This document shows positions 13,811-40,212 of a stretch of DNA of 40,291 nucleotides, piece after piece. The notes under the pieces are model-generated. The model did not search any database. It had not been told where the DNA came from and was given only the letters and a program-made list of their open reading frames with translations. Origin of the DNA: an uncultured Gammaproteobacteria bacterium (lineage in GTDB: Bacteria; Pseudomonadota; Gammaproteobacteria; Pseudomonadales; Litorivicinaceae); NCBI GenBank assembly GCA_913057215.1, contig CAJXNQ010000014.1:1-40291 (forward strand). The letters run 5' to 3'. Both the position numbers and the translations under genes were made by a program. Within the stretch, counting starts at the first letter, position 1. Every line of letters begins with the position of its first letter.

Positions 13811-14298
13811 GGTTTACCCATATTCACGTTTTGCACATCATAGACGCCGATCGAGTTGTCGTCTTCTACGGCTAACAGTGTCAACTGGGTCTGCAACGCA
13901 CCTGTGAGTGCGATCGGAACCTGCATCCCAGGCCGAAGTCCGTGTTTTTGGCCACGCGGATAGGAAGTGATGCGACACGTCTTGACACCGATACTGGTGC
14001 CAAACTCAACCCGTTGACGCGTCAATGGAAAGGGGGCACTACCAACATATTGAAGTGCAATGAGACTCGACCGACTCACGTGATCACCGGCGTCGAGTGC
14101 GGGATAGATTACCAGCGGCGTGCCCTCAAGCGGTTGGACTGTCACACAATCGGACTGACACTCGCCATCATGTTTCATGTGAAACAACCGCTCTAAACCA
14201 CAGCCAGTGGCATCCGATGGGAGCCAGACAAGCAGTGCGAAGAGCCACTCAATTCGGGTACAATCAGCCGGCTGAATTAACTGTTTGAGGAAACGCAT
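13807..14298 (-). CDS. Unknown protein upstream of tsaC
   Basis: The frame is open from def leftward; I give the first start that does not lie antisense to def, ATG at 14298 (163 residues). It would begin [10 protein letters not shown] and have a hydrophobic run, [18 protein letters not shown], possibly an atypical signal or lipobox. The other in-frame ATG, 14178, gives 123 residues without it. The C-terminal half ([35 protein letters not shown]) looks like a small beta-rich domain. I do not recognise a family; it is not a LysM or DprA protein, which usually occupy this place. The 4-base ATGA overlap with tsaC argues that it is translated. A parS-like site lies within it at 14171. Confidence 0.5.
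14171..14186. other. parS-like site, one mismatch
   Basis: TGTTTCATGTGAAACA differs from the parS palindrome TGTTTCACGTGAAACA at one central base. ParB usually tolerates outer changes better than central ones, so this may be a weak site. It lies in the unknown gene upstream of tsaC, about 100 bases before the def start. Confidence 0.45.
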
Positions 14299-21765: not shown

Positions 21766-23825
21766 GCCACTTCTATCTGTTTGAGCTTGGCTGTGAGGAA
21801 TTACCAAGCTCCGCCTTACCCAACATGGCAGCTGACTTACAAACACATGTAGAAAGCGCATTGAAAACTGCAATGCTTGGATACGGTAAGGTTGAGGTGA
21901 TCGCCGCACCAAGGCGACTCGGCGTCATGATTGAACACGTTGCGCCACGATCTGAAGACAAAGCGGTTGAACGAAAGGGCCCCGCGGTCAAAGCGGCCTT
22001 TGATGCGAACAATGAACCGACAAAAGCGTTGTTGGGTTTTTGCCGAAGCCTTGGTGTAGAACCTGATGCACTCACAGTCGAAGAGAGTGAGAAGGGGGCG
22101 TGGTTGGTCTACCGCGGCACAGATCCCGGGGTATTGGCAAACGAGCTCATCGGCTCGTTAATGACAGAGGCAGTCAGTGGATTGCCGTTGGCAAAAGCAA
22201 TGCGCTGGGGAAGTCAACGGGACGAGTTCCCGAGACCCGTGCATTGGATTGTCAGCATGCTGGATAACGAGGTCGTTCCTGTTGAATTATTCGGACTCAG
22301 CGCGGGTCGTACGACCTTTGGTCACCGCTTTCATGCTCCAGATGCAATTCAGCTTGAGCACGCAACGGATTATCAACGGGCGATGCAAAACGCATTTGTG
22401 ATTGCATCACTCGAATCGCGTAAAGAAGCGTGCTGGAAAAGCATCCAACAGGTAGCGGCTGATCACCAACTTCAAGTTGAACCAGATGAGTCTTTGCTTG
22501 AAGAGATTGCGTGTCTGGTGGAATGGCCGGTTGCTCTGTGTGGAGAGTTTGAGGATCGGTTTCTTGAAGTCCCAGATATTGCACTCATTGCCGCCATGCG
22601 CGGGCACCAAAAGTATTTTCACACGCGCAATTGCGTAACAGGCGATCTGTCGAACCACTTCATTACAGTCTCGAACATTCAAAGCCAAAAACCGGATGAA
22701 GTGATACGGGGAAACCAGCGGGTCATCCGTGCTCGACTATCCGATGCCGCGTTCTTTTATCACACAGATTGCCAAAAGACTCTATTCGAACGACGCGCAG
22801 CGCTTGATTCGATCACGTTTCATCCGGATCTCGGATCATTAGGCGATAAGACAGCACGGATCGCTTCTCTCCTGAAAGCAATGTCAGAAGCCATGAACAT
22901 GTCCCCTGATCAGGCTGTACGTGCTGCTGAATTGTCACGGTGCGATCTCGTGACCGAAATGGTGCTCGAATTCGACGAGTTGCAAGGAGCCATGGGTTCG
23001 ATCTATGCCACACGGGATGGCGAGGATGTTGAGGTATGTGACGCAATTGGTGATCTGTATGCACCTGCTGGGCTGCATGATGACATCCCTCAAACCCGTC
23101 TCGGATGCCTTCTGGCTCTTGCTGACAAACTGGATACACTGACGGGCCTGTTTGCAGCCAAGCAACCGCCAACGGGCAGTAAGGATCCATTCGCATTGCG
23201 CCGTGCCGCCATTGGCATGTTGCGCATTAATGAACACCCAGAGCTTCAGCTCGATCTCCAACCTTGGGTTGAGCAAGCGCTGGCAGGACAACCCATACAA
23301 TCCGACAAGGACACACTGGATGCGGTCATACAATTCATACAAGATCGAGAACGTGTGCGATTAACAGATCAGGGTATTGGGCATGATGCTGTGCATGCAG
23401 CACAGGCATCGCACGGACTAAAGACAACACGGGTCACGAAAGTCGCACACACCCTGTATCAGTGGCAAACAAACAACGAGTTTGCAGCGGTGGTGGAAGG
23501 CAACAAACGCGCGGCGAATTTGTTATCTAAATATCCCGATGCACTGAAGCCAGTTGATCCAACACGCTTCGAATCCGACGCCGAAGAAGCGCTTTTTCGG
23601 GCCTTACAACAGGCCAGCGCATCTGTGGCAGCGGATGTTTCACGTGAAACCTTTAACCAGGCGCTTGAAACAATCGTGTCACTCAAGGGGCCCATTGATG
23701 CGTTTTTCGAGAGTGTTATGGTCAACGCCGATGATGTCAGCCTCCGGGAAAACCGGTACGCGCTTCTCCACGAAGTTCGATCGGTCGTTATGCAAGTCGC
23801 AGATATCAGCATGATTCAATATTAA
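21762..23825 (+). CDS. glyS: Glycyl-tRNA synthetase beta chain
   Basis: 687 residues, standard beta-chain length. [15 protein letters not shown] opens it, [17 protein letters not shown] and [14 protein letters not shown] follow, and the HD-like middle contains [11 protein letters not shown] and [15 protein letters not shown]. The C-terminal part resembles an anticodon-binding domain and carries tRNA recognition. It overlaps glyQ by 4 bases. A parS site at 23636 lies within its last 200 bases and encodes VSRETF. Confidence 0.98.
23636..23651. other. parS site inside glyS
   Basis: TGTTTCACGTGAAACC matches the 16-bp parS palindrome at 15 of 16 positions, differing only at the last base. Its core TTTCACGTGAAA is perfect. 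ParB, encoded at 38018, is expected to load here. Confidence 0.85.
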
Positions 23826-23826
23826 T

Positions 23827-27865
<4,039 letters not shown>

Positions 27866-27868
27866 ACG

Positions 27869-28975
27869 TCATAGCCGCATTGGCATTACGACATAGCGAC
27901 CCGCATCATCACCCACACCAAGAATTAACGCGCTGCGATTACTGTCACCAAACCGCAGCTCAACTAGATCTGTTTCGATTGTTGCCAACACATCCAACAA
28001 GTAACTGACATTGAAACCGATCTCAAACCCATCTTGCCCCACGAATTCAACTTCGAGAGACTCTTGGGCCTCTTCCTGGTCCGCATTATTGGCCACTGCC
28101 TCCAACTGACCTTGTGTCAATCGAAGCCGAACGCCACGGTACTGCTCACTCGATAAAATCGATGCACGCTGAAGCACTTCACGTAACCGCTTCCGATCAG
28201 ACCGAACAACATGATCACCGCCTTGGGGCACGACGCGTTCATAATCAGGAAACCGACCGTCAATCAGCACACTGGTGAACACAAACCCTGGTGCAGACAC
28301 CCTGAAGTGACTGCTTGAAAAGGCCAAATCAACAGACTCTTCCGCATTGTTCACCAATCGCGCCAGCTCGAGTACGGCTTTCCTTGGCACGATCAACGAA
28401 ACGGGCTCTGCAGACATTCCCTCGAGAGGCGTCTGATACATACTCAAACGATGCCCATCGGTGGCGACCGTTCTAAAATCACCGCCACCAATCGAAAACA
28501 ACATCCCATTTAAATAGTACCGAACATCTTGTTGAGCCATCGCAAACTGGGTTTTCGAAATCGCATCCTGCAATGGCTGTTTCGCGAGGGTCACAGACGT
28601 GAGGTCACCTCGGATTTCCAGTCGAGGATAATCTTGCGATGGAAGCGTGGCTAACTTAAACCGAGACCGTCCACAAGATAACAACATCTGTGCACCGTCT
28701 TGCTTGAATTGGACAACTGAACCGTCTGGCAGCGCTTTCGCGATCTCTACTAACTTTTTTCCCGGAACCGTGACTGTACCGCCAGATCCCACTTCGACCA
28801 GCTCCATTTTGGTCGAAATTTCAGTATCGAGATCAGTCCCAGTTAACACAGCACCGGTTGCATCGACCTCAACCAATACGTTGGCCAGAATGGCCATGGT
28901 CTGTTTACGCTCGACGACAGACGCCGCGATTTGCGCTTTTTCCAAGAGCTGTTCGCGAGAAACAGAAAACTCCAT
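27869..28975 (-). CDS. dnaN: DNA polymerase III beta sliding clamp
   Basis: 368 residues from the ATG at 28975; AAGGA is 6 bases upstream, whereas a TTG at 28981 would fall on it. Three clamp repeats are seen: MEFSVSREQLLEKAQ and KQTMAILANVLVEV at the start, and the C-terminal end YVVMPMRL matches the VMPMRL ending that is nearly universal. The ring holds Pol III and other factors on DNA. It lies 9 bases after dnaA and 3 before recF. Confidence 0.98.
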   Translation of the reverse strand: MEFSVSREQLLEKAQIAASVVERKQTMAILANVLVEVDATGAVLTGTDLDTEISTKMELVEVGSGGTVTVPGKKLVEIAKALPDGSVVQFKQDGAQMLLSCGRSRFKLATLPSQDYPRLEIRGDLTSVTLAKQPLQDAISKTQFAMAQQDVRYYLNGMLFSIGGGDFRTVATDGHRLSMYQTPLEGMSAEPVSLIVPRKAVLELARLVNNAEESVDLAFSSSHFRVSAPGFVFTSVLIDGRFPDYERVVPQGGDHVVRSDRKRLREVLQRASILSSEQYRGVRLRLTQGQLEAVANNADQEEAQESLEVEFVGQDGFEIGFNVSYLLDVLATIETDLVELRFGDSNRSALILGVGDDAGRYVVMPMRL

Positions 28976-28984
28976 TGCCAATCC

Positions 28985-30394
28985 TTATCCGGTTAACGCT
29001 TTTAACAAATTGTTGTAATCATCACGGATGCTCAAATCCGTATCGCATAATTCTCTAATTTTACGACATGCATGAAGCACTGTCGTGTGATCACGCCCAC
29101 CAAATGCGTCACCGATTTCTGGTAACGAATGCTCAGTGAGTTCTTTGCACAACGTCATCGCCACCTGACGCGGTCGTGCCACCGATCGATTCCGACGTTT
29201 TGATAACAAATCTGAAATTTTGATCTTAAAGTAATCTGCGACCATCCGTTGGATATTATCGACGGAAATCTGCCGGTCATGGACAGCGATCAAATCACGA
29301 AGCGTCTCTCTAACAAAATCCAGCGTAATGGTTTGGCCGAAAAAGTGCGCATTCGCGAGCACGCGCTTCAGCGCGCCCTCAAGATCCCGTACGTTACTTC
29401 GCACCTTTTGAGCGATAAAAAACGCACAATCACGCTTTAACTCGACCCCAGAGTTCTGAGCCTTATTGATCAAAATCGCGACGCGTGTCTCTAACTCTGG
29501 AGGCTCGAGACGCACCGTCAGTCCCCAACCAAAGCGCGACTTCAGCCGGTCTTCCATGTTGTCAATTTCCTTGGGATACCGATCTGACGTCAAAATAATT
29601 TGCTGGCCACCTTCGAGTAAGCTATTAAATGTATGGAAAAATTCTTCTTGGGACTTTTCCTTGCCGGCAAAGAATTGGATGTCATCAATTAACAGCGCAT
29701 CGACGTTTCGGTACACCCGCTTAAAATCGGAAATCGCATTTAGCTGAAGCGCTTTGACCATATCTGCCACGAAACGCTCTGAGTGCACGTAGATAATCTT
29801 GGCACGCTCATTCCTTGCACGAATTTGATTTCCCACTGCATGCATTAAATGAGTCTTGCCAAGCCCAGTATCGCCGTAAAGAAACAACGGATTGTATTCC
29901 GACCCTGGTTTTTCAGACACACGATGCGCAGCAGCTCTCGCCAGTTGATTTGATTTGCCTTCAACGAAGTTCTCGAATCGAAACTCGTTATTCAGACGGT
30001 TACTGTGCTTGATCGACCCCTCAACCACCGGCGGTTCTCGCTCAACGGCCTGAGTCACCGGGACTTCCGCCTCCGGAAGAATCGAACGCATGGCCTCATT
30101 TTTCAGGACGACTCCTGGGTGGCTGCGACCTGGTTGCGATACAGACGCACCCCCTGAATCTGCGTGACCAACCTGTATATCCACTCGGTTAATCCCATCG
30201 TAATCTGAGAGTAATGCCTGGATACGCTCGAGGTAGCGGTTGACCACCCAATCCTTGACGAACCGGTTGGGTGCATACAGAACCATGTCAGCCTCAGACA
30301 CTCTGGCCTGAAGCGGACGAATCCATGTATTTAATTGTTCAGCAGACAGCTCTTCAGCCAATCGCTCAACGCACGCGTCCCAACTCACGGTCAT
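28985..30394 (-). CDS. dnaA: Chromosomal replication initiator DnaA
   Basis: 469 residues from the ATG at 30394. Domain I begins [16 protein letters not shown] with the NTWIRPLQ motif; a variable linker follows; the AAA+ domain has Walker A GDTGLGKT at about 174-181, Walker [10 protein letters not shown] and the [15 protein letters not shown] region; domain IV ends [15 protein letters not shown], the DnaA-box-binding signature. DnaA opens the origin. The ribosome site is unclear: GGGAG abuts the ATG, and a GTG at 30403 would add three residues. A near-DnaA box upstream at 30419 suggests autoregulation. Confidence 0.97.
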
Positions 30395-30417
30395 CTCCCG
30401 CACAAAACAGGGGATAA

Positions 30418-30447
30418 GTTATGCACAAACCGACCCGCCCGGGTCAA
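30418..30447 (-). promoter_or_regulatory. Possible dnaA promoter overlapping a DnaA-like box
   Basis: On the minus strand TTGACC (30447-30442) and CATAAC (30423-30418) are 18 bases apart. The -10 region overlaps TTATGCACA, one mismatch from a DnaA box, and the spacer holds a GACCCG/CGGGTC inverted repeat (30432-30445). The leader to the ATG would be only about 15-20 bases. Confidence 0.35.
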
Positions 30448-30651
30448 GAGAAACATCGCGATTATTTTTAAATTATTGATTCATATATAAAAATTAAATA
30501 GTGGGCATGTCTGTGGATAACTATTTCAAAAGTTTCATGGTCCGGTAAAATTCTCAATAAAATGAGCGGTTTTCATCGTGGCCTCTCGGTTTTCCACAGC
30601 ACCGAAAGCTGCAACAAGTGCATATTAATTTTCAACCCGATCGAAAAAACT

Positions 30652-30679
30652 TTGTTTTCGCGCATCAACTCGGTACACT
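30652..30679 (+). promoter_or_regulatory. Likely promoter of rpmH-rnpA-yidD-yidC-mnmE
   Basis: TTGTTT at 30652-30657 and TACACT at 30674-30679 are 16 bases apart, followed 36 bases later by the rpmH start with TAGGA as ribosome site. It is a reasonable sigma-70 fit; no other promoter is seen before yidC. Confidence 0.5.
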
Positions 30680-30715
30680 TCGCGCCCGGATTTTTTGAAT
30701 TGGTAGGACAGTGTT

Positions 30716-30850
30716 ATGAAGCGTACGTTTCAACCGAGTGTGATCAAGCGTGCTCGCAATCATGGGTTCCGCGCACGGATGGCCACAAAGAGCGGTCGCC
30801 AAATTATCGCTCGTCGCCGTGCCAAAGGTCGCAAGCGTCTCACCGCTTAA
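30716..30850 (+). CDS. rpmH: 50S ribosomal protein L34
   Basis: 44 residues: starts [18 protein letters not shown], then [17 protein letters not shown] and ends KGRKRLTA. This is the complete canonical L34, a small basic protein of the large subunit near the 23S rRNA. TAGGA lies about 8 bases before the ATG. It is the first gene of the plus-strand block, and rnpA starts 11 bases after its stop, the usual arrangement. Confidence 0.98.
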
Positions 30851-30861
30851 TCGAGCCAGTC

Positions 30862-31218
30862 GTGACGACAGTGGTAGCACTGCCGTCGCGCAGTGACTTT
30901 GACAAAATTTTTGGAAGTCCCGATGCTAAAGCCAGTAATCGGGACTTTTTAATTTTAGCCTGCCTTAGACAACACCCCGAGACGATCTCTCGAATCGGGT
31001 TCGTTACACCAAAGAAAAAACTGCGCCGGGCCGTCGACCGGAATCGTTTTCGCCGCGTGCATCGCGAATATCTCAGAGCGCACGGCCCATCATTTGGAAT
31101 TGATTGTATTGTCATCGCAAAGATGCGACCGGATGAACTTTTTGGACCTGCTTTTCAACATCAAGTCCATCGGATATTTCAGAAATTATTTCGTCATTTG
31201 GCCGAGTCAACCATCTAA
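30862..31218 (+). CDS. rnpA: Ribonuclease P protein component
   Basis: 118 residues from the GTG at 30862 ([18 protein letters not shown]). The frame is open further upstream through rpmH, but that is a frame shadow of L34. The RNR signature lies in [29 protein letters not shown], read in parts: [16 protein letters not shown] then FRRVHRE. It binds the RNase P RNA and pre-tRNA 5' leaders. A GTG at 30871 is an alternative start (115 residues). It shares the A of TAATG with yidD. Confidence 0.93.
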
Positions 31219-31466
31219 TGCGCGCGTTGATCCGACAGCCAATCATTGCGGTCATCCGCTTCTATCGGTACTTTATCTCCCCACTTTATCCACCGTCATG
31301 CAGGTTCGAGCCGACATGCTCCGCTTACATGATTGAAGCCATCGAGACACATGGTGTTGTTCGAGGCCTTTGGCTTGGATTGAAAAGGGTCGGAAAATGT
31401 CATCCTGGATGCGATGGAGGATATGATCCTGTACCGACATCCACACACAAAACGGAATCGAATTAA
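31218..31466 (+). CDS. yidD: Membrane protein insertion efficiency factor YidD
   Basis: 82 residues. [20 protein letters not shown], then [16 protein letters not shown] and [13 protein letters not shown], the near-invariant pattern of YidD. This small amphipathic protein sits at the inner face of the membrane and helps YidC insert proteins. It is coupled to rnpA and yidC by one-base TAATG overlaps. Confidence 0.96.
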
Positions 31467-33133
31467 TGGACATTCAACGCACTGGTTTATTAGTGATGCT
31501 CGGCATTCTGACTTATGTGCTGTTCTTGCAATGGAACACATATACCGAAGATTCAGCTGACCGCGCTCAACAGACACAGGCCGAATTAACCACGGAAGTG
31601 CGTGAGAATTCCTCTGACCTCGAAATTCCTACCACTGAGTCCAGCAGCAGCGTTCGCGACGTGCAAACTACGCAAAGCGGTCAAACAATCTCAATCACCA
31701 CGCCAGTGCTGCAACTGACCATCGACCTCACAGGCGGCGATGTCACCCAAGCGTTACTCAAGGACTATCCAACCGACATTGATCGGCCTAACGATCCGAT
31801 TGCTTTACTCGATTCACGTGACCGCATATACGTTGCGCAAAGCGGATTGGTCGGACAAGACGGTCCTGATGGATTCGAATCGGGCCGCCCTATCTATACC
31901 AGTGCTCAAAACGCGTACGAAATTTCAACTGAGCAGACCGTGGTACTGCAAACAACAGCTGACAATGGATTGATCGTCGAAAAACACTTTCATATTCATC
32001 CTGAACGTTACGACATCGAAGTCTCGCACCACATCCAAAACACCAGTTCAGAACTTCGAAGTGTCACGCCATTCGTTCAGATCAAACGTGACAACTCAGC
32101 TGATCCATCCATTCAAAATTCAATGGGTATGCAGGCATTTCTTGGGTATGCATTGCGCACTGCTGACGAGCGCTACCGAAAAATCTCGTTTGATGACTTC
32201 GAAACCGCCTCCGATGCGCGTGAGCTCAATGCGGAATTACGTGATGCAGCGATCGATGGCGGCTATCTCGCCTTACTGCAACATTACTTTACGACGGCCT
32301 GGGTACCCAGCGCAGACACTTCCCACCGCTATACGTTTAGACAGAATAATGAAGGGCACAATATCGGTAGCATCGTCAGTCCTGATTTGATACTCGAGCC
32401 TGGACAAACTGCTTCGACTGCTTCGATTTTGTATGTTGGACCCAAAGATCAAGATGCACTGGAAGCACTCACTCCAGGCCTTGAGTTAGTGGTTGACTAC
32501 GGCTGGCTCTGGTTTATCGCGCAACCGCTCTTTTGGTGCCTCCAATTCATTCATTCCTATGTAGGTAACTGGGGCGTTGCAATTATTTTGGTCACCGTTC
32601 TTGTCAAAGCCGCATTCTTTCAATTATCGGCGTCTGCCTATCGTTCCATGGCAAAAATGCGGAAATTCACGCCCGAAATCAGCAGACTGAGAGAGCTCTA
32701 CGGCGACGATAAACAACGGATGTCCAAAGAAATGATGGATCTTTACAAAAAAGAAAAGATCAATCCGCTCGGCGGCTGTCTGCCGATCATCGTTCAAATG
32801 CCTGTATTCATTGCTCTCTACTGGGTTCTATTGGAATCAGTTGAATTAAGACAGGCGCCTTTTGTGCTCTGGATCCAAGATTTGTCAGCAAAAGATCCAT
32901 TCTTTGTATTACCGCTTTTGATGGGCGTTTCGATGTATATACAAACGTCGTTAAACCCAACTCCACCAGACCCAATGCAAGCCAAAATTATGAAGTGGAT
33001 GCCTGTGGCCTTCACATTCTTCTTTTTATGGTTCCCCGCTGGACTTGTCCTGTACTGGGTTTGTAACAACGTACTTTCGATCGCGCAGCAATGGGTTATC
33101 ACTCGGTCCATTGAAAAAGCTCAGGCTGCTTAA
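31466..33133 (+). CDS. yidC: Membrane protein insertase YidC (Oxa1 family)
   Basis: 555 residues, the gram-negative form. TM1 is near residues 5-22; a large periplasmic domain (about 40-340) follows; the five-helix core contains LVKAAFFQLSASAYRSMAKM, NPLGGCLPIIVQMPVFIALY and WFPAGLVLYWVCNNVLSIAQQ, read separately. The conserved arginine (in YRSM) sits in the hydrophilic groove. It inserts and folds inner-membrane proteins alone or with SecYEG, including subunits such as AtpE encoded nearby. Coupled to mnmE by a one-base overlap. Confidence 0.98.
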   Translation: MDIQRTGLLVMLGILTYVLFLQWNTYTEDSADRAQQTQAELTTEVRENSSDLEIPTTESSSSVRDVQTTQSGQTISITTPVLQLTIDLTGGDVTQALLKDYPTDIDRPNDPIALLDSRDRIYVAQSGLVGQDGPDGFESGRPIYTSAQNAYEISTEQTVVLQTTADNGLIVEKHFHIHPERYDIEVSHHIQNTSSELRSVTPFVQIKRDNSADPSIQNSMGMQAFLGYALRTADERYRKISFDDFETASDARELNAELRDAAIDGGYLALLQHYFTTAWVPSADTSHRYTFRQNNEGHNIGSIVSPDLILEPGQTASTASILYVGPKDQDALEALTPGLELVVDYGWLWFIAQPLFWCLQFIHSYVGNWGVAIILVTVLVKAAFFQLSASAYRSMAKMRKFTPEISRLRELYGDDKQRMSKEMMDLYKKEKINPLGGCLPIIVQMPVFIALYWVLLESVELRQAPFVLWIQDLSAKDPFFVLPLLMGVSMYIQTSLNPTPPDPMQAKIMKWMPVAFTFFFLWFPAGLVLYWVCNNVLSIAQQWVITRSIEKAQAA

Positions 33134-34485
33134 TGATATCGAGTGACACGATCGTCGCCTCTGCCACCGCCAGTGGTCAGGGCGCGGTCAGTGTGATTCG
33201 GTTGTCGGGCCCATCTGCAATTCAGATTGGTGAGACGCTTGCACAACGGACGCTCCACCCTCGAACGGCACATTATGGGGCGCTCCACAACAATTCAGAA
33301 CAAATCGACTCAGGCCTCTGGCTGTGTTTTCCTAAACCCAAAAGTTTCACCGGTGAAGATGTTGTCGAATTTCAGGGTCATGGCGGCCCAGTTGTCATCC
33401 AGCGATGTATTCAAGCCATGGTCGACCAGGGAGCACGACCTGCCAAACCCGGTGAGTTCAGTGAGCGCGCATTCCTCAATGATAAAATCGACTTAACGCA
33501 AGCCGAAGCAATCGCTGACCTCATCGCAGCCTCATCAGACCAAGCAGCGCGCGCAGCAAACCACTCGATGAACGGCGTTTTTGGTAACCGCATCAATGCA
33601 CTTGTTGACTCACTCACGCACATTCGAACCCACATTGAAGCCCATATTGATTTCCCAGATGAAGAAATCAGTCCTACGGCACTCACACGTATTCAATCTG
33701 AGCTCGACACGGTCCATACGTCCTTAAGTGACCTGCTCAGCCGTGCTGAAGACGGAGTCAAACTCAATCAATCGCCGCGCATTGGCCTCATCGGCGCCCC
33801 TAACGCAGGCAAAAGTTCACTGTTGAATGCCCTGTCTCAACAGCCCTTAGCCATTGTGACCGACATCCCTGGAACCACACGCGATCTTATTCGTCACACC
33901 ATCGTAGTTCGGGGCCTTGAACTCTCGATTACGGACACTGCCGGGATTCGTGACACAACAGATCGTATTGAACAAGAAGGCATCAAACGTGCACAAGACG
34001 CAGTCAAACACTGTGACATTATCGTGTGTCTATTCGACGCAACCAGCCATCCGAGTATTCACGATCAAGACATTGAGAGACTTGTGTCTCATGCGTTGAC
34101 ACCCACCCAGACTCTGCTGACGATTCATAACAAAATCGACCTCGACACAGATCCACTTGAGAACCACTCTTCATACAATTACGTTCAGATTTCTGCGGTC
34201 AAAGGTGATGGAATTGACCAACTGTTAGATTGGTTTGAGGAGCATCTACGCAGTAATCATCAAGCAGAAACGATCTTCACAGCACGTGCTCGCCATCTGA
34301 AACATTTGCGTGAATCGTTAAATTATTTGGAAACAGCACGCACACTCGAGCTCACGTCCATGACCATTGACCTGGTCGCAGAAGATCTAAGACTTGCACA
34401 ACACTGTCTGTCAGAAATTACGGGACGATTCAGTTCCGACGATCTTTTGGGTGAGATCTTTTCGAGTTTTTGTATCGGTAAATGA
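33133..34485 (+). CDS. mnmE: tRNA uridine-5-carboxymethylaminomethyl modification GTPase MnmE
   Basis: 450 residues. The N-terminal folate-binding domain opens DTIVASATASGQGAVSVIRLSG; KPGEFSERAFLNDKIDLTQAEA marks the helical domain; the G domain has GAPNAGKSS, TDIPGTTRD, DTAGIRD and NKID; the protein ends FCIGK, whose cysteine is conserved. With MnmG it makes the cmnm5 group on U34 of tRNAs. It ends the plus-strand rpmH operon; mnmG is 241 bases away across the second origin candidate. Confidence 0.98.
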   Translation: MISSDTIVASATASGQGAVSVIRLSGPSAIQIGETLAQRTLHPRTAHYGALHNNSEQIDSGLWLCFPKPKSFTGEDVVEFQGHGGPVVIQRCIQAMVDQGARPAKPGEFSERAFLNDKIDLTQAEAIADLIAASSDQAARAANHSMNGVFGNRINALVDSLTHIRTHIEAHIDFPDEEISPTALTRIQSELDTVHTSLSDLLSRAEDGVKLNQSPRIGLIGAPNAGKSSLLNALSQQPLAIVTDIPGTTRDLIRHTIVVRGLELSITDTAGIRDTTDRIEQEGIKRAQDAVKHCDIIVCLFDATSHPSIHDQDIERLVSHALTPTQTLLTIHNKIDLDTDPLENHSSYNYVQISAVKGDGIDQLLDWFEEHLRSNHQAETIFTARARHLKHLRESLNYLETARTLELTSMTIDLVAEDLRLAQHCLSEITGRFSSDDLLGEIFSSFCIGK

Positions 34486-34726
34486 TGTCTATAACTGCCC
34501 CTCAACGACCGTTAAAACCTATGGATAATTCAGGGTGTGTATAAAACCGGATTCCGCGAACAGGTTATGCATGCAATGCATACAATCTACAAGCACCTAC
34601 TTCACAGAGTCTAAAAACGCCTAATCATCTGAATTTATTTAAAAAGCATCGCTTTTCCACAGGTTCGTTTCGACGTAATATAAACAACATCAATAATCTT
34701 CTTTTTTAAACATTCTTTATATATAT
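34486..34726. other. mnmE-mnmG intergenic region: preferred origin candidate
   Basis: This 241-base AT-rich gap has one-mismatch DnaA boxes TATGGATAA (34520-34528), TGTGTATAA (34536-34544) and TTTTCCACA (34653-34661). A TATGCAT-gca-ATGCATA inverted repeat is at 34566-34582. Its right end is a strongly A/T unwinding-type region, with AATCTTCTTTTTT (34695-34707) two mismatches from the E. coli 13-mer pattern GATCTNTTNTTTT. The placement beside mnmG is that of E. coli oriC. GC skew changes sign here (see findings). No GATC sites are seen, so SeqA/Dam control is unlikely. Confidence 0.6.
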
Positions 34727-36622
34727 ATGGATTACAGACAACAATTTGACGTCATCGTCGTCGGTGGTGGTCACGCTGGAAGTGAAGCAGCACATGCGGC
34801 CGCTCGCATGGGTTGTAACACGCTTTTAGTGACGCATTCGATTGAAGCGCTTGGGCAGATGTCTTGTAATCCAGCGATCGGTGGAATCGGCAAAAGCCAT
34901 CTCGTGCGCGAAATTGACGCGTGCGATGGTCTTATGGCTCAAGTCACAGATCAAGCTGGCATTCAGTTTCGAGTTCTTAATCGACGAAAAGGCCCAGCTG
35001 TTCGAGCAACTCGGGCCCAGGCAGATCGTGTGCTGTATCGCCACCACATGCGGTCGCGGTTAGAAAACACAAAAAATCTGACGATATTTCAACAGCCGGT
35101 GACTGATTTGATGATTGAAAATCATCAAGTGACTGGTGTGAAACTGGCGATGGGACTGTGCTTGTCCGCCAAAACCGTGGTTTTGACTGCGGGAACATTT
35201 TTAGCTGGGCAAATTCACATCGGCATGCAGCAACAGTCTGGTGGTCGTGCGGGTGATCCAGCCTCAGATCAACTTGCCACTGCTTTGAAACAATATCCGT
35301 TTCGCATTTCAAGATTAAAAACAGGGACTCCACCGCGGATCGATTCTAGGACAGTTGATTTAGAGCAATTAACAACCCAGCCTGGCGATGACCCTGTGCC
35401 CTATATGTCCATGATGAGCCAAGGAAACGAGCATCCTGAACAGGTGGCTTGTTATTTATCACGCACGACCGAGCGGACCCGCGACATCATCTTAGAAAAT
35501 TTACATTTGAGTCCAATGTATGCCGGTGTCATTGACGGGGTTGGGCCTCGATATTGCCCATCCATTGAAGACAAAATTGTTCGCTTTGCCGACAAACCAA
35601 CACATCAAGTGTTCTTAGAGCCAGAGGGACTCACCTCAAATGAACTGTATCCGAATGGCGTGAGCACATCGTTACCCTATGAGGTACAGCTGGATATCAT
35701 TCGATCGATGGATGGTTGTGCCGAAGCCATTATCACTCGTCCGGGTTATGCCATTGAATATGACTATTTTGACCCTCGAGATTTAAAAGCGACGCTTGAA
35801 AGTAAGCTTGTCAGCAATTTATTTTTTGCCGGTCAAATCAATGGCACCACAGGGTACGAAGAGGCTGGTGCTCAAGGATTGTTGGCAGGCGCGAATGCAG
35901 CGCTTCGAGCAAATGATCGTGATCCATGGATTGTTGGACGTGATGAAGCATACCTTGGTGTCATGGTTGATGATCTCATTACGCTTGGAACACAAGAACC
36001 GTATCGGATGTTTACATCGCGCGCGGAATACCGTTTGGCATTACGAGAAGACAATGCAGATACTCGATTGACTGAGACTGCACGATCGCTCGGCTTGGTG
36101 TCAGATGCTCGATGGAGTGCTTTTAATAAGCGCCAAGACGCCATTCGTGTCGAATCTGCTCGGTTACAGCAGATTTGGGTTCGTCCACAGGATGCATGTG
36201 TGGAAAAATTGAATCCTCATTTAACAGCCCCGTTGTCAAAAGAAGTGACATTGCATGACTTATTAAAGCGCCCTGAGATGGACTATGACGCGATCATGTC
36301 ACTGACTGAACAGCCACCACATGAAGATCCATCGGTCTCAACTCAAGTTGAAATTTTGGTGAAGTATTCAGGATATATCGCCCGTCAAACTGATGAAATT
36401 GCCAAGCTGAAACGCAATGAACACATTCGTATTCCGACGGATGTCGATTATGATCAGATCTCGGGTTTATCAAGTGAGGTCACACAAAAATTGAAGGACC
36501 ACCAACCCGAAACGCTTGCGCAGGCAGCCCGTATTAGTGGTGTGACACCGGCAGCGATCAGCCTATTACTTGTTCATTTAAAACGGCATCAAACGATGCC
36601 AAAAGGACAACTTGCCAGTTGA
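34727..36622 (+). CDS. mnmG: tRNA uridine-5-carboxymethylaminomethyl modification enzyme MnmG (GidA)
   Basis: 631 residues, the long form. The FAD-binding [17 protein letters not shown] is at the start, [18 protein letters not shown] follows, [18 protein letters not shown] marks the core, and the C-terminal helical domain binds MnmE. It uses FAD, NADH and methylene-THF to modify U34. It starts at once after a TATATATAT run with no Shine-Dalgarno sequence, so translation may use an AU-rich standby. It heads mnmG-rsmG-parA-parB, linked by 4-base overlaps. Confidence 0.98.
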
Positions 36623-37245
36623 AGGTTTTGGCGGATTGGGCAGCGTCACGTCTATCGCTTGATGAGGCACAATTGAATGCGTTTGAATTAGTGTGTTCGG
36701 AACACCTCAAATGGAACACTGTATTTAATTTGAGTGCGCATCGCTCGCATGATCAAGTCGTCAATGATCAACTCATTGATTCGTTAACAGTCGCAGATGC
36801 GATTACGGGATTATCTATTCTCGATATTGGTACAGGGCCTGGTTTTCCCGGGCTACCACTTGCCATTACTTTTCCTGATATTCAGTTTGTTCTCTTGGAT
36901 TCAAATGCAAAGAAGCTTGCATTTGCCAAACATGTCGTCGGTCTATTGAAGCTTCAAAATGTGGAGATCGTTCATCAACGCATCGAACATTACGTACCAG
37001 CTCATAAGCATGATCAAATAATCAGCAGGGCCTTTTGTTCGCTCAGTGATATGATTCACTATGCACTTCCAATTCTTGCACCAAATGGGCAGATTTTGGC
37101 GATGAAAGGCCCGGGTGTATTTACTGAGCAGGCTGACGCCGAACTGAAATACCCGCGTTGTAAGATTAACGTAAGGGCGTTACATCATGCACGAGATGAA
37201 GAGAAAACGCGTTTTCTTGCGACAGTGACACGGACCGAAACATGA
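36619..37245 (+). CDS. rsmG: 16S rRNA m7G527 methyltransferase
   Basis: 208 residues. [42 protein letters not shown], read as [15 protein letters not shown] (SAM motif I), and [12 protein letters not shown] are typical of GidB. It methylates G527 of 16S rRNA and its loss gives low-level streptomycin resistance in other bacteria. The start is TTG at 36619, inside the mnmG stop (TTGA). It overlaps parA by 4 bases. Confidence 0.95.
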
Positions 37246-38021
37246 CTCGAATTATCGCAATTACAAATCAAAAAGGCGGGGTTGGTAAGACAACGACCTG
37301 CGTCAATTTGGGTGCGACACTCTCAGAAATGGGATACGGGGTATTAGTGATCGACTTTGACCCACAAGGAAACGCAACCAGTGGTAGCGGTGTGGAAAAG
37401 CGTCACATTCAGCATGATGTGCGTGGATTATTACTGGGTGAACACAGCTTCCGCGAAACGTGTGTGATGGGAACCGCCGCTGGGTACGACTTGTTGCCGT
37501 CGGATATCCAATTGACCGAGGCTGAGGTTGCTCTGATTTCAATGCCTGCTGCACAGAGTCGATTGAAAACGATGTTGGCCGAACAAGCAGGCAGCTATGA
37601 TTTCGTTCTGATTGATTGTCCACCGGCGCTTTCAATGCTCACGATTAACGGCTTGGTAGCGGCAGACGGTGTCATAATCCCGGTCCAGTGTGAGTTTTAT
37701 GCACTTGAGGGGATCGCAGCGCTGATCGAAACAATCGAACAAGTAAGAGCCTCTCACAATCCAAGCCTCCAAATCGATGGAGTCTTGCGCACCATGTATG
37801 ATCCGAGAACCAGCTTGACGCGCCAGGTGTCGGTGCAGCTTGAACAATTCTTTGATGACAAAGTCTTCAAAACAGTGATTCCAAGAAATGTCCGTTTGGC
37901 TGAAGCGCCAAGCCATGGCCTTCCGGTCTTGCGATATGATCGATTGTCAAAGGGCGCATTGTCCTATTTAGCGCTCGCATCTGAATTACGAAAACGATTG
38001 AAGTTGAAAAAAGCAGCATGA
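37242..38021 (+). CDS. parA: Chromosome-partitioning ATPase ParA (Soj)
   Basis: 259 residues, chromosomal type without an N-terminal DNA-binding extension. Deviant Walker A NQKGGVGKTTTCVN is at residues 8-21, VIDFDPQGNATSG is the Walker A' region, and VLIDCPPALSMLTINGL the Walker B. ATP-bound ParA dimers coat the nucleoid and are displaced by ParB-parS complexes, moving origins apart. It is followed by parB with a 4-base overlap. Confidence 0.97.
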   Translation: MTRIIAITNQKGGVGKTTTCVNLGATLSEMGYGVLVIDFDPQGNATSGSGVEKRHIQHDVRGLLLGEHSFRETCVMGTAAGYDLLPSDIQLTEAEVALISMPAAQSRLKTMLAEQAGSYDFVLIDCPPALSMLTINGLVAADGVIIPVQCEFYALEGIAALIETIEQVRASHNPSLQIDGVLRTMYDPRTSLTRQVSVQLEQFFDDKVFKTVIPRNVRLAEAPSHGLPVLRYDRLSKGALSYLALASELRKRLKLKKAA

Positions 38022-38911
38022 CGCAGAAAAAACGAGGTCTCGGTTTTAATCCGCTACTGGGACTGGATCAAAACACCGTTGATGCGGTTCTCAGCCATTC
38101 ATCTCAAGGATCCCAGCAAACACATTCGATTGCTGAAGGCTTGGTGAATATCCCGGTTGAGCACATCGTCGCGAATCCATACCAGCCGCGAATTCGTTTT
38201 GCGGAAACGGAATTGGACGAACTCGCAGATTCGATTCGGCAACATGGCGTCATGCAGCCGGTTGTCGTGCGACAGACCGCCTCGGGATATGAATTGATCG
38301 CGGGTGAGCGGCGTTGGCGTGCATCGCAGCGGGCCGGGCTCGCTGACATTCCTGCGTTAGTTCGCGCGCTTGACGATCAGCAAGTTGCTGCCTTGGCTCT
38401 GATTGAAAACGTGCAACGTGAACAATTGACAGCCATTGAGCAAGCGCGTGCCTTAGGCCGCATGCGCGACCAATTTTCAATGGATCAAACATCACTCGCA
38501 GACCTGATGTCTTTCAGTCGATCCAATGTCGCTAACTTGTTGCGCCTTTTGAATTTAGCGCCGGCTGTGCAAACTATGATGGAAACAGGCACGCTTGACA
38601 TGGGCCATGCGCGCGCGCTCCTACCACTGCCAGAGACCATGCAAACGAGAACTGCAGAGCAGGTGGTCGAGGGTGAATTATCAGTTCGGCAGACCGAGGC
38701 ACTGGTTAAGCGGATGCTCGCAGAAAATCAGCCAGCACCGACAACCTATACAGATCCAGATATTTCAAGGCTTGAAACTAAACTGTCTGATCGCCTTGGC
38801 GCATCTGTGCAGATCCGAGCCAAGAAAAATGGACAAGGTCAGATTGTCATTAAATATGCATCACTGGATGTCCTTGATGGCATTGTGACGCGACTAAAGA
38901 GTAAGGATTGA
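38018..38911 (+). CDS. parB: Chromosome-partitioning CTPase ParB (Spo0J)
   Basis: 297 residues. A short basic N-terminus (MTQKKRGLGFNPLLG) for ParA contact; the CTP-binding domain with NPYQPR, LADSIRQHGVMQPVVVR and GERRWRASQ; a central helix-turn-helix for parS recognition (SLADLMSFSRSNVANLLRLL); a C-terminal dimer domain. It loads at parS as a CTP-dependent clamp that slides along DNA and recruits SMC. Four parS or parS-like sites are in this window. Confidence 0.97.
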   Translation: MTQKKRGLGFNPLLGLDQNTVDAVLSHSSQGSQQTHSIAEGLVNIPVEHIVANPYQPRIRFAETELDELADSIRQHGVMQPVVVRQTASGYELIAGERRWRASQRAGLADIPALVRALDDQQVAALALIENVQREQLTAIEQARALGRMRDQFSMDQTSLADLMSFSRSNVANLLRLLNLAPAVQTMMETGTLDMGHARALLPLPETMQTRTAEQVVEGELSVRQTEALVKRMLAENQPAPTTYTDPDISRLETKLSDRLGASVQIRAKKNGQGQIVIKYASLDVLDGIVTRLKSKD

Positions 38912-38944
38912 GGGCGACATTGGGCCAATCCGTCATTTTAGTCG

Positions 38945-38974
38945 TTGATCCGACACATTTGACTGCCTATACTC
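38945..38974 (+). promoter_or_regulatory. Possible promoter of the atp operon
   Basis: TTGATC at 38945-38950 and TATACT at 38969-38974 are 18 bases apart in the 95-base gap between parB and atpI. This is the only reasonable sigma-70 match in the gap. The start of atpI lies 32 bases downstream. Confidence 0.45.
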
Positions 38975-39006
38975 CGGACACGATGCGTGATTTAGGCAGG
39001 TGATCG

Positions 39007-39378
39007 ATGCAACTTGTCGGGCGGATATTAAAAATTCAGACGCTCGTTGCGGTCCTGCTTGCTGGTTTAGGGGTATTTTTTATCTCGTGGCCTTTCGGGA
39101 TGAGTGCGTTGATAGGAGGCCTCATTGCGGCCATTCCGCAATTGATTTTCGGATTATGGGCGTTTCGAGTACGAGGGGCCCGAAATGCCAGACGAATCAC
39201 ACAAAACGTGTTCGTTGGCGAGGCATTAAAATTAGTGACGACCGCTGTGGCATTTGTTGCCGTTTGGACGTCGGTCCCTTGGCTTGATGCTGCGGGGTTA
39301 TTCGCAGGTTTTGTGATGACGATTGTCACGCTGCAGTTGAGTCTACCGTGGACGCTCGGTAGGGCAAAAACACTTTAG
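39007..39378 (+). CDS. atpI: ATP synthase protein I
   Basis: 123 residues with four predicted membrane helices (LVAVLLAGLGVFFISW; ALIGGLIAAIPQLIFGL; LVTTAVAFVAVW; GLFAGFVMTIVTLQLSL). It has little sequence conservation, but its position before atpB and the helix pattern identify it. AtpI acts as a non-essential chaperone that helps assemble the c-ring and/or Mg2+ handling. AGGT precedes the ATG. Confidence 0.85.
   Translation: MQLVGRILKIQTLVAVLLAGLGVFFISWPFGMSALIGGLIAAIPQLIFGLWAFRVRGARNARRITQNVFVGEALKLVTTAVAFVAVWTSVPWLDAAGLFAGFVMTIVTLQLSLPWTLGRAKTL

Positions 39379-40212
<834 letters not shown>

Follow-up and report, generated by a model that had tools for sequence, protein, structure and literature searches.

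The question raised by this locus is where on the chromosome replication starts. The window (the whole stretch of DNA analysed, 40,291 bp) is the entire contig C14 of a 1.58-Mb assembly in 53 contigs, and two of its intergenic gaps have to be considered. One lies between dnaA and rpmH, reportedly the site of the replication origin in Pseudomonas. The other lies between mnmE and mnmG, and a position beside mnmG is the standard one for origins of E. coli-like bacteria. The relevant part of the window is organised as follows:

24360-30403, minus strand: dnaA-dnaN-recF-gyrB, predicted leading-strand genes of the leftward arm
30404-30715: dnaA-rpmH gap, containing a second DnaA-box cluster (TTATGCACA at 30419, plus strand; TTATCCACA at 30512, minus strand; TTTTCCACA at 30590, plus strand)
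30716-34485, plus strand: rpmH-rnpA-yidD-yidC-mnmE block with C-excess, probably head-on to the leftward fork
34486-34726: mnmE-mnmG intergenic gap of 241 bp, proposed oriC on account of the skew turn and the anatomy
34727-36622, plus strand: mnmG (gidA), predicted first leading-strand gene of the rightward arm, with the skew minimum (34,756) inside

Nine of the ten window proteins scanned against curated profiles scored above the cut-off (DnaA, DnaN, MnmE, MnmG, RsmG, ParB, YidC, RecF, and GyrB). ParA matched partition ATPase families, in all cases below the cut-offs of those families. The identity of rnpA, yidD, atpI and atpB rests on their position and on matches of the window sequences at the same places in relatives; rpmH was identified by eye and is absent from the third-position skew values given below.

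Strand bias turns at the mnmE-mnmG gap

From rpmH to atpB all genes are on the plus strand, and the sign of the G-C skew switches within this array, at the mnmE-mnmG gap. Full counts give 635 G and 783 C for positions 31,561-34,440 (skew -0.104) and 1057 G and 927 C for positions 35,521-39,600 (skew +0.066). The cumulative G-C skew of the window reaches its minimum at 34,756, 29 bases inside mnmG, which starts at 34,727. Third codon positions, read on the plus strand, turn at the same place: rnpA (-0.13), yidD (-0.10), yidC (-0.17), and mnmE (-0.29) are negative, while mnmG (+0.12), rsmG (+0.26), parA (+0.06) and, further right, parB (+0.22), atpI (+0.33), and atpB (+0.04) are positive.

The first-pass annotation had counted G and C in sampled rows only, and had proposed that C-excess gives way to G-excess at mnmE/mnmG, that transcription cannot explain the change in an array read from one strand, and that the origin is placed as in E. 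coli. The full counts agree with the sampled ones, the genes across the turn do share a strand, and both cumulative and third-codon-position skew, suggested there as a check, turn at this gap in the window; on long contigs of two congeners the cumulative minimum lies there too. The minimum was not found at 30.4-30.7 kb, the position named as speaking against the proposal. An E. coli-like placement is thus supported by the skew minimum at the mnmE-mnmG gap together with the oriC-like anatomy described below.

The skew minimum in related genomes

At chromosome scale the position of the minimum rests on long contigs of two congeners, G008 and G001, neither of which is a finished chromosome. On the G008 contig (C9, 638,152 bp) the minimum is at 401,567 and mnmG starts at 401,555; on the G001 contig (C2, 475,866 bp) the two positions are 408,065 and 408,053. 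The distance is 12 bases in both. Another G001 contig (C1, 1,442,657 bp) has positive skew in samples up to 810 kb, near-zero skew at 860-880 kb and negative skew afterwards, i.e., one positive-to-negative change at approximately 860-930 kb that resembles a terminus. No second minimum was seen in 22 sampled 20-kb tiles of this contig.

The same-genus set comprised 22 genomes; six yielded no locus for lack of an mnmG match, leaving 16 loci. In all 15 that hold dnaA, mnmE and mnmG the cumulative skew is lower at the mnmE-mnmG gap than at the dnaA-rpmH gap. In 12 of these 15 the local minimum is no more than 150 bases away from the mnmG start; in the other three it is 787-1092 bases inside mnmG. 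MnmG of the same-genus matches is 72-80 percent identical to that of the window. For the wider comparison the best 80 of at least 592 MnmG matches were kept, and none among these exceeds 64% identity to the window. In one genome (G015, L022/L131) mnmG is split into two adjacent pieces, possibly by a sequencing error. The split gene produces an artefactual long branch in the tree, which was used solely to show that the Pseudomonas and Marinomonas rows fall among loci of the same order.

Replication signal or codon use

A skew turn between genes may reflect codon preferences of these particular genes. We therefore calculated a difference, D, by subtracting the coding-sense GC3 skew of the flanking genes from that of rnpA-yidD-yidC-mnmE; the flanking genes are on the leading strand whichever of the two gaps is the origin. 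In the window the block has a GC3 skew of -0.21 vs. +0.26 in the left and +0.15 in the right flank, giving D = -0.41 with a binomial z of -8.4 (inflated, as codons are not independent). D is negative in all 16 same-genus loci including the window, with z from -5.1 to -12.2.

The long contigs allow a comparison with ordinary genes. Pooled GC3 skew of leading genes is +0.137 in G008 and +0.149 in G001, that of lagging genes -0.087 and -0.130, and that of the rnpA-mnmE block -0.206 and -0.241, respectively. The value of the block was reached by none of the equal-size runs of leading genes (0/336 in G008, 0/230 in G001) and by hardly any run of lagging genes (0/240 and 1/180). The block is of the lagging type with no sign of dilution. 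mnmE is C-richer than typical lagging genes (-0.43 in G008 against the lagging mean of -0.087; yidC of G008 has -0.08), and part of its bias may be gene-specific.

In the betaproteobacterial control D ranges from -0.02 to +0.09 in all nine rows having mnmE and mnmG. A locus titled Paucimonas (L060, D -0.02) was kept out of this count, as its values resemble the Pseudomonas rows. None of the 19 loci counted as Pseudomonas by their record titles has a lagging-type rnpA-mnmE block (z from -2.2 to +2.3). The raw cumulative curve is nevertheless lower at the mnmG side in all 18 Pseudomonas-titled loci holding dnaA. Since the coding-sense test gives no difference in 19/19, the raw curve was discarded as an origin test in Pseudomonas, and we explain its mnmG-side dip by codon preference. 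The genes of E. coli itself lack the skew contrast of the block, so the coding-sense test is not universal.

Anatomy of the mnmE-mnmG gap

The gap contains an arrangement of putative sites similar to that of E. coli oriC, whose DnaA boxes include those named R1 and R2:

34520-34528, minus strand: DnaA-box-like TTATCCATA, differing from TTWTNCACA at one position and located 16 bp upstream of the R2-like box
34536-34544, minus strand: R2-like DnaA box TTATACACA, 117 bp from the R1-like box
34622-34634, minus strand: IHF-like site, two mismatches to YAANNNNTTGATW, beginning 31 bp before the R1-like box
34653-34661, plus strand: R1-like DnaA box TTTTCCACA, facing the AT-rich stretch and mnmG
34678-34727: proposed duplex unwinding element, the 50-bp stretch of lowest stability in the window, ending on base 1 of the mnmG start codon

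This geometry of boxes, IHF-like site and AT-rich stretch is conserved in the genus. The distance between the mnmE and mnmG hits is 240-245 bp in 16/16 loci, the position of the putative IHF site has 0-1 mismatch in 12 of them and two in the other four (the window included), and in 15/16 the 50 bp of lowest stability in the locus end at the mnmG start codon, give or take about 20 bases. Three HU/IHF-family genes are present in the genome the window comes from.

In the region 34700-34740 the mnmG start codon is located within a TATATATATATG run that forms part of the proposed unwinding element. The start TATGGATTACA is almost invariant across the genus, and no Shine-Dalgarno-like sequence before mnmG is evident by eye. 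A perfect parS palindrome is situated about 10 kb from the proposed origin:

24297-24312: perfect parS palindrome TGTTTCACGTGAAACA

Palindromes with one mismatch to parS are found at 23636-23651, 26811-26826 and 14171-14186. Relative to the proposed origin, all four sites are on the side of dnaA, and parAB is on that of mnmG.

The R2/IHF/R1 composite and the spacing of its boxes

The three sites were combined into a composite and compared with shuffled sequences, using 72 of 121 sequences plus E. coli; as the spacing rule was derived from these loci and E. coli, the shuffles are partly post hoc and descriptive. No shuffle out of 200 was as good as the real sequence in 15/16 genus loci, and one was in the remaining locus (L126). 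With up to four mismatches the composite occurs once in 638 kb of G008 and once in 476 kb of G001, at the mnmE-mnmG gap in both cases. Among other gammaproteobacterial loci it is at or under 2/200 shuffles in 19/47 and not in 28/47; the best value in the betaproteobacterial control loci (n = 9) is 47/200. The loci of Shewanella (L059), Alteromonas (L074), and Acinetobacter (L112) gave no composite score; boxes upstream of mnmG are present in the Shewanella and Alteromonas loci.

Both strands of the dnaA-rnpA gaps were scanned in 15 genus loci, and the best matches to the composite have 6-10 mismatches. Only in L126, with six mismatches at the mnmG side, where R2 is poor, and six at the dnaA gap, does the former fit no better. 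In L129 the R1 box is poor (TTTTCCCCG), and the 50 bp of lowest stability are found at the dnaA gap. The TTATGCACA box close to dnaA is kept in 15/15 aligned genus loci; the dnaA-rpmH gap has two further box positions.

With the IHF-R1 offset fixed at 31 bp and the R2 distance left free between 85 and 134 bp, the R1-IHF anchor was found in 43 loci; an R2 box with no or one mismatch is present in 31 of these and absent from 12. The R2-R1 distance is 106 bp in seven loci besides E. coli (three Colwellia, Psychromonas, two Rodentibacter, and Moritella) and 117 bp in 16 loci (11 of this genus, two Pseudomonas, one titled Paucimonas, Marinomonas, and G049). Six genus loci have 133 bp, which corresponds to the next box upstream, and distances of 97, 105, 116, 122, and 125 bp occur in one locus each. 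The 11-bp difference between the two common spacings is about one helical turn. Our literature search found nothing on the origin of this genus or on the 106/117 spacing; subscription papers were mostly outside the search, which makes this weak evidence of absence. No precedent in Coxiella burnetii was found among the literature matches listed.

Alternative explanations

The dnaA-rpmH gap possesses parts of a Pseudomonas-type origin, the boxes and an AT-rich stretch, while the skew minimum is absent. An origin there, as in Pseudomonas, with the rnpA-mnmE skew caused by gene-specific codon use, would agree with the three TTWTNCACA matches in 312 bp vs. 105 in the 1.58-Mb genome, with a 50-bp stretch (30451-30500) that ranks second in the window for low stability and with the conservation of the boxes within the genus. 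The motif is hardly commoner in the genome than its backward control (89 matches), and the mnmE-mnmG gap has two exact DnaA box matches vs. three in the dnaA-rpmH gap. Against this placement, no skew turn was found at the dnaA-rpmH gap in the window, the long contigs or the genus loci; the cumulative curve drops further at the mnmG side in all 15 genus loci, with the long-contig minima there as well; no run of leading genes is as C-rich as the block; and the same genes have no such bias in the betaproteobacterial rows. The long-contig minima, the leading-gene runs and the genus-wide comparison lead us to reject this gap as the main origin, and we regard this explanation as very unlikely. It is hardly credible that the turn marks no origin and was left by a recent inversion or caused by transcription. 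Local skew can be moved by inversions, but gene order around the gap, gap length and turn are shared by 16/16 genus loci despite the MnmG divergence given above, and the turn is the minimum of both long contigs; a transcription effect is opposed by the single strand that carries all genes across the turn.

An unlikely, though less remote, alternative is that both gaps are used, the mnmG side as the main origin and the dnaA-rpmH gap as a dormant, stress-induced or helper origin in addition to controlling dnaA transcription. A box cluster and an AT-rich stretch are present in both gaps, and PMC12000880 describes an initiation zone bordering dnaA that is UV-induced and DnaA-dependent in rnhA/rnhAB mutants of E. 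coli, with oriC inactive. However, the intervening block is no less lagging in character than ordinary lagging genes, so any long-term use of the dnaA side must have been small, and boxes at dnaA promoters are also accounted for by autoregulation. We read the dnaA-rpmH boxes as serving dnaA autoregulation and perhaps a standby origin too.

Proposed origin and its working

From the skew minimum at the gap and its E. coli-like anatomy we infer that the mnmE-mnmG gap (34,486-34,726) is very probably the chromosomal oriC of this organism. Presumably, DnaA would load on the R1-like and R2-like boxes and on weaker sites between them, and IHF would introduce a bend at its site 31 bp ahead of R1. The resulting complex could then melt the AT-rich stretch at 34,678-34,727, and firing would send off two forks. 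The rightward fork would copy mnmG-rsmG-parAB-atp co-directionally, the leftward one would run head-on through mnmE-rpmH and then co-directionally through dnaA-gyrB.

The first-pass annotation had also described rpmH-mnmE as transcribed head-on to the leftward fork, unlike the rule for such genes. The head-on orientation stands, because it follows from an origin at the mnmE-mnmG gap; its being unusual does not, as E. coli K-12, with rpmH-mnmE on the plus strand at 3.884-3.888 Mb, left of oriC (3.9257 Mb), has the same head-on block. We therefore rejected the block as a peculiarity of this organism.

Among the 24 loci from other families of the order, five (L132, L135, L137, L140, and L148) lack mnmE and are outside the D counts; D is negative in 18 of the 19 loci with mnmE and mnmG, with z of -3 or below in 10 of them. 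In both Porticoccaceae loci (L064, 5489-9212; L081, 5567-9198) rnpA-yidD-yidC-mnmE is inverted relative to dnaA and mnmG, and the inverted block is co-directional with the leftward fork. mnmG keeps its place there, with the skew minimum at +10 and -129 from its start. A different picture is seen in L143 (G044), where D is near 0: third-position skew changes sign between dnaA and rnpA, the cumulative curve is lower at the dnaA side with the minimum 1.9 kb from dnaA, and no DnaA-like boxes occur within 350 bp upstream of mnmG. This locus is a candidate for an origin switch within the order.

Most likely, this is an origin of the E. coli style that retains the old gene order, dnaA being just 4 kb away. 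The new aspects are modest and comprise an mnmG-side oriC of compact size within an undivided array, lacking GATC enrichment and apparently SeqA, and a one-turn difference in R2-R1 spacing between groups, for which no earlier description was found in the literature searched. We speculate that an IHF-phased mnmG-side orisome is ancestral in Gammaproteobacteria and predates SeqA/Dam control and the separation of dnaA from oriC. It would exist in two helical-phase versions, one of 106 bp (E. coli, Rodentibacter, Psychromonas, Colwellia, Moritella) and one of 117 bp (Pseudomonadales, e.g., this genus, Marinomonas, some Pseudomonas). Pseudomonas would have retained the orisome and shifted its use to dnaA-rpmH, and in this genus the dnaA-rpmH cluster would be a standby origin. 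We consider this wider scenario possible but rather doubtful.

Origin placement by dnaA alone, or a choice between candidates by GATC, would be misleading or silent here. The genus has kept the old gene order, in which 4 kb separate the two candidate origins, and can therefore show how oriC use passes between the two sides. The one-turn difference in R2-R1 distance at a fixed IHF-R1 distance amounts to a testable prediction on orisome geometry, and the head-on rpmH-mnmE block together with the Porticoccaceae inversion is a natural test of selection against replication-transcription conflict.

Comparison with known origins

Like the proposed origin, E. coli K-12 oriC (mnmG-oriC-mioC) adjoins mnmG, has an R1 box facing an AT-rich stretch between R1 and mnmG, an opposed box with the identical 9-mer TTATACACA at the R2 position in the same orientation relative to mnmG, and an IHF site beginning 31 bp before R1; the order towards mnmG is R2, IHF, R1, AT-rich DNA, and mnmG in both. 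The differences concern the R2-R1 distance (106 bp in E. coli, 117 bp in the window), the distance from R1 to mnmG (176 and 74 bp), the left neighbour (mioC and mnmE), and the distance to dnaA (about 42 and 4 kb). E. coli has 10 GATC in the last 250 bp before mnmG, whereas the window's gap has none and the gaps of its congeners 0-2, so there is no enrichment of the enteric type. SeqA (PF03925) was found in none of the 19 genomes searched, 12 of them at least 90% complete, with a positive E. coli control.

The gene array is that of Pseudomonas, and the mnmE-mnmG gaps of two Pseudomonas loci (L042, L054) share the R2-R1 distance of 117 bp. The window differs in having its skew turn at the mnmG side and a lagging-type block, missing from the Pseudomonas-titled loci. 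The essential origin of P. aeruginosa is the dnaA-rpmH one. The excerpted text of PMC4403523 speaks of two autonomously replicating elements in this species, one alone being essential, and a figure legend in PMC12000880 gives the order dnaA-oriC-rpmH for P. putida.

According to the excerpted description of DoriC 10.0, some Gammaproteobacteria have two candidate oriCs, and the gidA-side one was kept for its GATC. The window lacks the GATC enrichment by which these gidA-side records were chosen; here, skew and the R2-IHF-R1 core decide instead.
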